Source: Anaerolineales bacterium
Lineage (GTDB): Bacteria; Chloroflexota; Anaerolineae; Anaerolineales; UBA11858
Direction: 5' to 3'
Assembly: GCA_028278545.1 (NCBI GenBank)
Contig: JANQED010000033.1
Coordinates: 62,001-126,000 of the forward strand
DNA: 64,000 bases
This document shows positions 48,964 through 51,585 of this stretch, one piece after another (within the stretch, counting starts at the first letter, position 1; every line of letters starts with the position of its first letter). A program made the position numbers and the translations under genes. Below the pieces are notes generated by a model. It worked only from the letters and a program-made list of their open reading frames with translations, was not told the DNA's origin and ran no database searches.

Positions 48964-50277
48964 TCATTGTTCTGTGATAATGACCGTAATGATGTTATCT
49001 CCCGGGGGCAGCTCCCCACCCTGGGATGGATCGCGAGGCGTGAAATCTTGAACCACTTCCATGCCGCTGATCACTTCCCCAAAGATGGTGTAACCACCGT
49101 CGAGGTGAGTGGCGGGGCCGTAAGTGATGAAGAACTGGCTGCCATTGGTGTCCAGGCCGGAATTAGCCATGGCGACCAAGCCCTCACGGTCGAAGGATAG
49201 ATCTTCTGATGTTTCGTTCTTGAAGGCGTAACCTGGGCCGCCCAAGCCTGTTCCCGTGGGGTCCCCACCCTGGGCCATGAAGCCAGGCAGCACGCGGTGG
49301 AATGGTGCGCCGTCAAACCAGCCTTCTCGGGCTAAGAAGACGAAGCTGTTGACCGTTATGGGGGCCACATCGGGGAAGAGTTCGATGACAACGTCGCCCT
49401 TTTCAGTCTGAAGGGTGGCAGTGTACCCCTTGAGTGGGTCGATGACCATTGGGGGACATTCGGTATATTGCTGCTCGGCGAATTCGGTCAGGCTGAGGAT
49501 GGCGGTGATGCTGGCAGAATCCAGCGGGCCGTTGTAGGGGTTGTTGTTGAGCGCAAAGAAGGGCGTGCCGGGAAGCCCGATCCGCTGACCCTCTTCCCAG
49601 GTATTCTCTGCCAGGGCGACGATCTGCTCGCTGTTGAGATCAGCCTCGAATTGGGCTGCATCTATCTCCAATGCAGGGGCATTGTCGATCAGCCAACTCT
49701 GGAAGCCTTCTACGGAGAGGCCGGTCCAATTGGAGATGTTTTCGTAGAGGAAATTGTGCATCTCCCAGAATTTGCCTTGCAACCCGGCTGCTTCTGCGGC
49801 CTGGGTAGCCAGCAGCGCTTTATCATGAATGGAGGCCAGAGGGAAATGACGGTAGACCACGCGCACATCTTCGGGAAAATCGACTTTGAGTTGCGCCAAC
49901 ACGGGCGCAATTTGAGCGCAGTATGGTCATTGATAGTCGCCGTACTCGACGATGGTCAGGGCGGCGGTTTCGGGGCCTAAAACCCAGTCGTCGTCGGTGA
50001 CAGCGAAGATGTCCGCGTAGGGTGTTTCTGGGTCCATGGGCGCGCTGACCATGGTGCACTCACTGACGAATTTGGCCGGGGTGGGCTCTTCTTCGGCGGC
50101 GAGAGCGGGGGTCTCCGTGGGGGGAGGTTGGGTGGGGGGAGGTTGAGTATGGGTGGCTTCGGGAGTAGGGGGTGCTTCTTGTGCAGAAGTCTCCCCGGCC
50201 TGAGTCGGCGCCTCCCCGCCGCAGGCGGCCAATAAGAAGGCCAGTACCAACAAAGGGATTAGAAAACGTTTGTACAT
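48964..50277 (-). CDS. Predicted selenoprotein lipoprotein: DsbA-like (UPYC) plus cyclophilin PPIase
   Basis: Read through an in-frame TGA (49929-49927), this is a single 437-residue frame. It has a lipoprotein signal peptide (VLAFLLAACGG), a Pro/Thr-rich linker, and a DsbA-like thioredoxin domain (about residues 85-270). A cyclophilin-type peptidyl-prolyl isomerase follows (about 283-437; FHRVLPGFMAQGGD, NSGLDTNGSQFFI). The TGA is residue 117, in VEYGDYQ-U-PYCAQIAP, exactly where DsbA homologues have the first Cys of CPYC; the resolving Cys is residue 120. The cis-Pro is in GLPGTPFFAL. A SECIS-like hairpin follows the codon. A true nonsense mutation is the rival reading, but the frame continues intact for 320 codons. 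It is secreted and probably folds disulfide proteins; the zincin gene lies 9 bases upstream. Confidence 0.85.
49891..49910 (-). promoter_or_regulatory. Bacterial SECIS-like hairpin after in-frame UGA
   Basis: On the minus strand TTGCGCC (49910-49904), loop CGTGTT and GGCGCAA (49897-49891) form a perfect 7-bp stem. The loop starts 24 bases after the UGA, and a G is the second loop base. Bacterial SECIS elements lie just 3' of the codon with a G/U-bearing small loop, so both position and loop fit. ACT/AGT further out may extend the stem. Confidence 0.75.
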
Positions 50278-50286
50278 GAATCTCTC

Positions 50287-51585
50287 CTAAGGGGTTAGAT
50301 TTTTCTCCACAGCCGCTTGCAACTGCTCGAAGGACCACATCCAAGAGATGCGGTTGACGAAAGCAGCCAGCGAGGGGCTTTCGGCGCGCAGGGCGCGTAC
50401 AGCGGCACCAATAGGGTCTTCACTGACGCCTGCCGCGCCGCCGGGTTGGTCTGCGTAAGCGCCGTGAAAGGCAAAATAGGCCTGATTGAGCTTGCGGATA
50501 CGGTAGCCGTTCTCAACGAAAAGTTGGCGGCGGGTCTCCATATAGGCTTCGGCTTCTTCGATCTCCCCTTCGGCCAGCATCTGATCGACGTTGAGGCGGG
50601 TTTCGTGCATTTCAGCCCTGAAATCGAAGGCCGGGGGTTCGGGTTCGGGGGTGATCTCTTCACTGGGCTCCGCGATTGGCTGCGGCGGGGGCGGGACGAA
50701 CTCTGGATAATAGCGCTCGATGAGTGCGGCGCCGATTTCTTTCCCGGCGATGTTGGCTGTCGTCTCGTTGATGGTGCGCAGCTCAGCGTTTTTCATGTAA
50801 CTGGCTCCCAGAGGGCGTAGGGTGAGGAAGTTGTGGATCCATTCGTGGGCCACTACCTCAGCCAGCCAGTTGATGTTCGTGGTCTGGACAACCATGGTGG
50901 GATAGGTGCCCACGCCGCCGATATTTACGACCAATGAGGATACGTTCAATGCCTGGTCAACCTGGGTTTCGAGGGTAGCGCGCTGGTCGGTGGGGTACTC
51001 GTGCTGGAGAGAGATGTTGGCATCTTGCTGGATCACGTCCCGAGGGGAGACGATCAGGGCCAGCGGCAGCGGCGTGATATGGTAAAGCACTGGCGGTATG
51101 GATTGCCCCCCAAAGGTCAGGTCTAGTTCTGCGGCGGTAGTCCTGAGCTGGTTCTGAAAGATCGATTCGGCCAGGGGAGCCAGGTGTCTGCGGTGCTTGT
51201 AAAGCCGGTCCAGTTCTTGGCGCAGCGGTTCTGAGGCCGCCTCAGGGTTGGCGATTTCTGGGTTGGTGTAATACTCGTCGAGGTAGCCTTCGTATTGGGA
51301 AATTTGCGCGACCAGATCGAGGTAGTCCAGCACAAGCAGGCTTTGATCATCTGGGGTCAGGTAATCGGCTGTTCCTATGCCGATCTGACCCAGTTTGTCC
51401 TGCAGGGCATCCAGAGTCCAGTTCACGTAGTCGAATTCGATCTGACGTGTGAAGGCGCGTACGCGCTCGACTTGATCTCCTGGCTCCAGGACGCTGCGCT
51501 GCAGGGAGAAAACGGCCATCAGGACGACAATTGTGGGGCGGAGAAAAGGCCTTATCAACGACCATAAACCGGGCATAACGGGCAT
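50287..51585 (-). CDS. Membrane-anchored zincin-like metallopeptidase
   Basis: The 432-residue protein has one N-terminal hydrophobic segment (SLIRPFLRPTIVVLMAVFSLQ), which is a signal anchor or uncleaved signal. The main domain is external and contains the zinc motif VAHEWIHNFLTLRPLG (HExxH) near residue 245 and ELRTINETTANIAGKEIG about 25 residues on, a likely place for the third zinc ligand (Glu). The family is not one I can name. It precedes the predicted selenoprotein by 9 bases, so the two are probably produced together. A disulfide or cis-proline requirement of the peptidase would fit. Confidence 0.7.
   Translation of the reverse strand: MPVMPGLWSLIRPFLRPTIVVLMAVFSLQRSVLEPGDQVERVRAFTRQIEFDYVNWTLDALQDKLGQIGIGTADYLTPDDQSLLVLDYLDLVAQISQYEGYLDEYYTNPEIANPEAASEPLRQELDRLYKHRRHLAPLAESIFQNQLRTTAAELDLTFGGQSIPPVLYHITPLPLALIVSPRDVIQQDANISLQHEYPTDQRATLETQVDQALNVSSLVVNIGGVGTYPTMVVQTTNINWLAEVVAHEWIHNFLTLRPLGASYMKNAELRTINETTANIAGKEIGAALIERYYPEFVPPPPQPIAEPSEEITPEPEPPAFDFRAEMHETRLNVDQMLAEGEIEEAEAYMETRRQLFVENGYRIRKLNQAYFAFHGAYADQPGGAAGVSEDPIGAAVRALRAESPSLAAFVNRISWMWSFEQLQAAVEKNLTP

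Follow-up and report, generated by a model that had tools for sequence, protein, structure and literature searches.

A predicted selenocysteine-containing fusion of a DsbA/DsbG-type thioredoxin fold and a cyclophilin in an Anaerolineales bacterium

An open reading frame on the reverse strand of a 64,000-nucleotide stretch of Anaerolineales DNA (the window) runs from an ATG to a final TGA with a single interruption, a further TGA at codon 117. Does this internal triplet end translation, or does it encode selenocysteine (Sec, U)? The original prediction placed the triplet at the first position of a DsbA-type CPYC motif with intact sequence on either side, and both statements held on inspection. 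Read in frame, the context is D-Y-Q-U-P-Y-C, such that the TGA sits on the first Cys of C-P-Y-C. The sequence ahead of it comprises a signal peptide of lipoprotein type (LLAAC19), a linker, and the opening strands of a thioredoxin fold, which is completed downstream and followed by a cyclophilin domain. When the codon was read through, Pfam matched Thioredoxin_4 and DSBA over residues 95-261 and Pro_isomerase over residues 288-413, all above cut-off. Coordinates of these and other features are collected in Table 1.

Table 1. Features of the fusion locus, in positions of the window
Feature	Position	Strand	Remarks
DsbA/DsbG-type thioredoxin and cyclophilin lipoprotein gene	48964..50277	-	437 residues if the internal TGA is an amino acid
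Signal peptide, ending in lipobox-like LLAAC	50221..50277	-	lipidated Cys19 predicted
Thioredoxin-fold domain	49495..49995	-	PF13462, residues 95-261; PF01323, residues 108-246; profile and model
Cyclophilin domain	49039..49416	-	PF00160, residues 288-413; profile and fold
In-frame TGA, predicted Sec codon	49927..49929	-	residue 117, first position of UPYC; same-column TGA in 52 of 127 homologous loci
Second active-site Cys	49918..49920	-	residue 120; invariant in the 30-row alignment
Thr238-Pro239, likely Thr-cisPro loop facing the active site	49561..49566	-	P239 invariant in 30 rows; meaning from the available parts of PMC4597128 and PMC4460558; cis geometry predicted
Cys74	50056..50058	-	nearly invariant in the 30-row alignment
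Cys274, in linker ahead of the cyclophilin domain	49456..49458	-	invariant in 30 rows
Predicted bacterial SECIS hairpin	49891..49910	-	stem TTGCGCC / GGCGCAA, hexaloop CGTGTT, loop 23 nt after UGA; comparison and covariation
GTG within the SECIS loop	49900..49902	-	start of a 312-aa ORF from mechanical calling; likely false start in databases
Upstream gene, 432-aa protein with HEWIH (HExxH) motif	50287..51585	-	9 nt from the fusion gene

The window protein, with its UxxC motif, scored 50.5 bits against PF01323 (cut-off 25.6), and all 30 members of an alignment of the family matched this profile at E 0.001. C19 was present in at least 90% of the rows of that alignment. An AlphaFold model of the fusion (30 sequences) reached a mean pLDDT of 84.7 and a pTM of 0.70. 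In this model residue 117 directly precedes a helix (118-133) and follows a strand (107-113), while residues 19-67 form a low-confidence linker. Nearly all of the 50 PDB matches listed by Foldseek were cyclophilins or spliceosome entries, and the best solved matches of the C-terminal domain were cyclophilins by both profile and fold. The N-terminal half was matched by sequence profile to DsbA-like chains, e.g. 3gyk and 4xvw. Outside the active site, the conserved Cys74 and Cys274 may form a structural disulfide with each other.

We then asked what relatives encode at the column of the TGA. Some match to the read-through protein was present in all 61 genomes searched (that of the window included). 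The best loci of these genomes were pooled with loci that a search of 298 members of the class yielded among the matches listed, and with fetched stretches, to give 127 homologous loci. Alignment revealed the alternation of Cys and UGA for which the original prediction had proposed looking: 52 loci carried TGA (51 genomes, with G347 represented twice), 59 Cys, and 16 another residue, proportions that are not an unbiased frequency because best-scoring loci were taken and TGA-containing and full-length matches from the class search were fetched deliberately. The 16 others comprised 8 Ser, 3 Ala, 3 Asp, 1 Thr, and 1 Gly; Trp occurred in none of the 127. Among the best 30 loci, TGA stood at the exact column in 13, Cys in 16, and Ala in 1, and two loci outside this set (L049 and L053) likewise had TGA. 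A separate scan of named genomes found TGA in 7 of 80 kept loci, all from Anaerolineales, Anaerolineae, or Chloroflexi MAGs, some of which are records already counted. Motifs within the family included UPGC, UPAC, and others besides UPYC.

The closest relatives kept both the TGA and the hairpin described below, the reverse of what would be seen had close relatives replaced the codon with Cys and lost the hairpin. In relatives with Cys the hairpin was mostly absent, as expected for Sec/Cys pairs. An apparent pair of TGA codons in genome G270 was rejected as such, since one is the Sec codon and the second the normal stop. In ten relatives (L060, L077, L082, L083, L095, L102, L107, L085, L086, and L089) the Sec/Cys column holds Ser, Thr, or Asp, as in DFQSQGC, which leaves no attacking residue there. 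The match to these relatives still covers both domains, and they cluster with two Cys rows on a quick tree. Two DsbA-like paralogues without a cyclophilin domain, L055 (G053) and L057 (G039), likewise have TGA in frame at the first Cys of the motif, followed in L055 by the stretch CGTTTC[CGTGTT]GAAACG.

The hairpin in the window begins at the 17th base after the UGA, a gap of 16 bases, and consists of the perfect 7-bp stem and CGTGTT loop named in the original prediction (stem strands at 49904-49910 and 49891-49897, loop at 49898-49903). According to the available part of PMC13188914, a bacterial SECIS (bSECIS) model allows a loop of 3-9 nt, a stem of 4-16 bp, a G in the first two loop positions, a spacing of 16-37 nt, and a minimum free energy of at most -7.5. 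The window hairpin fits this model, with 7 bp, a 6-nt loop, G then U at loop positions 2-3, and a spacing of 23 nt. Its reading as a bacterial SECIS was supported by the published bounds and by covariation of the stem, and found no support in folding of the single sequence or in Rfam, where a search at the site gave no SECIS match. The 60-nt stretch folds at -11.9 kcal/mol, and 62 of 200 shuffles folded at least as well (z -0.35). By itself the hairpin is not beyond chance, and a single-sequence z-score is uninformative. Its significance derives instead from recurrence across genomes at the same column, in the same loop register, and with a covarying stem. Conservation of the hairpin is partly a protein-level effect, because it overlaps the codons of the conserved peptide APVLAQL.

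Hairpins were counted across the 125 unique loci that remain after two duplicates are removed from the 127. In a search reaching 42 nt, a range chosen after the +38 stems described below were known, a hairpin of six or more Watson-Crick pairs with G[G/U] at the start of its loop occurred in 48 of 52 TGA rows, 4 of 58 rows with Cys, none of the 15 with another residue, and 12 of 988 control anchors (positions inside TGA rows). With the published bounds instead (16-37 nt, loop 3-9), the corresponding counts were 47 of 52, 4 of 58, 0 of 15, and 19 of 988. Four TGA rows had no more than 4-5 consecutive Watson-Crick pairs, and two close rows (L020 and L024) had one unpaired stem position. Compensated stems in the same register occurred within the group of the window, namely TTCCGCC/GGCGGAA (L029), TTGCACC/GGTGCAA (L030), and TTGCTCC/GGAGCAA (L035).

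The SECIS stem covaries. Among 30 TGA rows selected by a CGTGNT loop sequence alone, 87.2% of cells were paired, compared to 74.2% after shuffling. Double changes numbered 24 against a shuffle mean of 8.2, and none of 500 shuffles scored as high. Pairing fell to 33-57% when the partner strand was slid. A further measure, how many pairs had changed on both sides (4 versus 2.8), was within control, as 61 of 500 shuffles were as high. Misfits within this set formed 3 (L105), 2 (L127), 5 (L129), and 2 (L130) of the 7 pairs, and the best hairpin lies elsewhere in these rows, at +38 in L127, L129, and L130 and at +16 in L105.

Such displaced hairpins were common. The loop of the best hairpin lay at +23 in 26 TGA rows, at +37/38 in 23, and at +16/17 in 3. 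The +38 type has a G[G/U]N triloop closed by a stem such as GCGTCT/AGACGC, and counting the loop as a triloop puts it one base past the published spacing. On a quick tree, at least 4 switches between the two DsbA hairpin types are required within the Sec rows, and at least 15 between Sec and non-Sec states. The tree comprised 124 rows (L053 was omitted for an N gap) and was built by a quick method under LG+G4 without an outgroup, such that gain and loss of Sec are indistinguishable and the deep branches and direction of change unsure. One of the four Cys exceptions, L031 (G038), has a Cys codon and nonetheless carries TTGCGCC[CGTGCT]GGCGCAG at +23, nearly letter for letter the hairpin of the window. 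It is likely a relic of a Sec-containing ancestor, pointing to a Sec-to-Cys switch.

A third register was observed in a different gene. SelD genes contained their own TGA in 41 of 43 cases among the matches listed, and in 34 of 35 matches over cut-off in a further set of TGA carriers; in the SelD rows examined, no such TGA was found for L070 and L174. The best hairpin (at least 6 pairs) had its loop at +32/+33 in 37 of 50 SelD rows, a set that leaves out L180 and L196. One SelB may accept the +23, +38, and SelD hairpin forms. These comparisons incline us, by a modest measure, toward an Anaerolineae-wide selenoprotein family in which the SECIS was rebuilt at different places in one gene (CGUGNU hexaloop at +23, G[G/U]N triloop at +38) and in which Sec and Cys or another residue replaced each other at least the 15 times counted on the quick tree. 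If so, the family would offer a natural series for following how a Sec codon and its recoding signal arise, shift, and disappear where the same bases must also encode protein.

Genes for Sec insertion were sought in the same genome, where the original prediction would have them. The draft encodes selA (531.8 bits), selB (328.7 bits together with a neighboring piece; cut-off 242), and a tRNA-Sec with anticodon tca (75.1 bits). For selD, no match in this 85% complete draft exceeded the cut-off of 125 bits (best, 57 bits). Its absence likely reflects draft incompleteness, as selD was found in 5 of 7 genomes of the same genus. Across the class, selD exceeded cut-off in 32 of 36 further TGA carriers.

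Within the 61 genomes, selB was above cut-off in 41 and tRNA-Sec was found in 39. All 15 genomes with a TGA copy had selB or tRNA-Sec. Those without a selB match (G012, G050, and G058) or a tRNA-Sec match (G003, G007, and G033) are all drafts. The 14 genomes lacking both showed no TGA copy among the matches listed (Fisher p 0.011, uncorrected for relatedness). Three genomes (G031, G056, and G041) were judged by protein search alone, which for G041 means the matches listed, weak ones not being among them. A tRNA gene search of the 64-kb window found none, and in the genome of the window tRNA-Sec and the fusion gene lie on separate contigs. At four other loci (L049-L052), the DsbA-cyclophilin match has a tRNA-Sec gene on the opposite strand at a distance of 267 to 1255 bases; the column residue in these is Sec once, Cys twice, and Ser once. 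The G039 draft gave two matches each for selB, selD, and tRNA-Sec, indicating either a mixed bin or a doubled system.

With a codon, hairpin, and machinery of this kind, we consider it very likely that the gene encodes a selenoprotein, probably a lipid-anchored, extracytoplasmic fusion of a DsbA/DsbG-type domain and a cyclophilin with Sec at the attacking position of U-P-Y-C, and that its chemistry is thiol-disulfide exchange. This estimate covers the chemistry apart from its direction. In the mechanism we propose, SelB likely binds the CGUGUU loop and would deliver Sec-tRNA to the UGA, which lies 23 nt upstream of it. The selenolate of Sec would serve as the nucleophile toward disulfides in substrates, and Cys120 would then resolve the intermediate by forming a U-S bond.

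The direction of exchange is where an alternative survives best. Selenocysteine may be retained in a protein acting mainly as a DsbA-type oxidase that is recharged by VKOR, a reading which we regard as possible and hold tentatively. It agrees with the Pfam DSBA and Thioredoxin_4 matches and with VKOR in 19 of 21 genomes, that of the window among them. DsbD_TM was likewise present in 19 of 21, again including the window's own genome, so that candidate membrane partners of both families (CcdA/DsbD-type and VKOR) are encoded. The active-site residues speak against an oxidase. In the available parts of PMC4597128 and PMC4460558, DsbG has CPYC with Thr-cisPro, while DsbA has CPHC with Val-cisPro. 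The window protein combines UPYC with T238-P239 (cis geometry predicted), which is the DsbG-type pair, and an isomerase or reductase therefore seems the likelier role. The argument from the motif is weakened by UPGC, UPAC, and other variants in the family. On balance, disulfide isomerization or reduction, with recharge by a CcdA/DsbD-type membrane protein, is moderately favored over pure oxidation.

The cyclophilin domain has the catalytic residues FHRVLPGFMAQGGD, corresponding to CypA R55, F60, and Q63, which we take to be the catalytic Arg with its nearby Phe and Gln. In the 30 rows, R328 and F333 were nearly invariant and Q336 was invariant. Both the PF00160 fold and the Arg/Phe/Gln set of cyclophilin-type PPIases are present, and isomerase activity is predicted. 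This domain would isomerize X-Pro bonds in the unfolded clients that it shares with the thioredoxin domain, on the surface of the membrane, and the protein as a whole would function as a foldase.

A second alternative takes the TGA as a true stop and the locus as the source of two products, a short lipoprotein and a cyclophilin started at the GTG within the hairpin loop. That GTG does open an ORF, which is commonly the database entry. The 120 nearest database proteins listed include 96 that begin after the TGA (the fragment from the window counted), as the original prediction foresaw in expecting automatic annotation to cut the gene, and 57 of the 96 begin at (M/V)LAQL, the position of the loop GTG. 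Where named, the 96 mostly bear peptidylprolyl-isomerase names. Two products are nevertheless very improbable, because the cut would divide the thioredoxin fold after strand 107-113 and before helix 118-133 and would part the two active-site residues, the Cys-containing relatives form one continuous gene, and the hairpin covaries.

We give slightly less credence to decoding of the UGA as another amino acid, whether Trp, Cys inserted by a suppressor tRNA, or the product of a reassigned code. Some read-through is needed in any case. However, 5 of 13 neighboring ORFs (48964-50277 included) end in TGA, which is therefore a working stop here, the genome encodes selA, selB, and a tRNA-Sec with anticodon tca, and the alternate residue at the column is mostly Cys and never Trp. 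A further alternative is a pseudogene, in which a DsbA-cyclophilin gene of the usual Cys type acquired a nonsense mutation or was misread in sequencing. The unremarkable single-sequence hairpin, the 59 Cys loci, and the mostly fragmentary database relatives listed might have suggested it. This is refuted as a general explanation by an identical TGA in 51 genomes, a hairpin that tracks it, and conserved domains in both halves, and for this gene is the least probable reading of all.

The upstream gene for a 432-aa HExxH protein and the fusion gene are likely in the same operon. Of 23 family loci checked (that of the window included), at least 17 have a homologue of this neighbor next to the fusion gene, and the opposite side is often occupied by a VTT/DedA-type gene. 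The 432-aa protein had no Pfam or NCBIfam match, and its motif and association make it a candidate metallopeptidase family tied to the fusion locus. A plasmid search returned 357 records, none of which covers 80% of the query.

If the selenoprotein reading is correct, selenium would join the extracytoplasmic folding machinery of a large class known mostly from assembled metagenomes. The enzyme has likely been overlooked in some 50 related genomes. Databases usually list it without its front part; the 96 late-starting proteins lack everything ahead of the Sec codon and illustrate this loss. The occurrence of Sec, Cys, or neither in one column, together with an apparent relic and a relocated SECIS, would make Sec/Cys exchange directly testable.

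Selenoproteins of DsbA-like and DsbG-like type with UxxC are established, according to the available parts of PMC1088965, PMC1794560, and PMC13188914. The first of these lists DsbA-like form 1 (PF01323, UxxC) among the new families of the Sargasso Sea set. Its main text, so far as available, does not contain the word cyclophilin and describes no such fusion. The text of the 2026 review PMC13188914 contains none of the words cyclophilin, peptidyl, PPIase, or lipoprotein, and the available part of PMC12013277 names neither DsbA nor an isomerase. A literature search over titles and abstract openings, with most subscription journals outside its coverage, found no selenoprotein fused to a cyclophilin, nor did the papers listed on DsbA-cyclophilin fusions describe one; a search on 'Rcas_1661' returned nothing.

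The best NCBIfam match was NF041057 (DsbG-like / Rcas_1661 family thioredoxin-like (seleno)lipoprotein), over residues 9-250. The window protein shares with it UxxC in a predicted lipoprotein, a type listed as DsbG-like, UxxC in the available part of PMC13188914. It differs in that the model spans 247 positions without a cyclophilin, and at 96 bits it falls below the curated cut-off of 190, as do ten other TGA rows (76-121 bits). With DsbA-like form 1, as described in the available part of its source, the protein has in common a PF01323 match above cut-off and UxxC, and the cyclophilin fusion is its own. In comparison with DsbG, Pfam matched no N-terminal dimerization domain, and residues 19-67 are the low-confidence linker of the model. 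The C-terminal domain resembles cyclophilin-type PPIases (PF00160, 148 bits; nearest solved chain by profile 1w74, PpiA), from which it differs in being predicted to be exported, lipid-anchored, and fused behind a thioredoxin fold. Also close are the Cys-type DsbA-cyclophilin fusions of Chloroflexota, such as that of Bellilinea caldifistulae (L242). These have the same two domains and can be aligned column by column, and they differ in carrying TGC or TGT in place of TGA and in the rarity of a SECIS-type hairpin (4 of 58 Cys rows).
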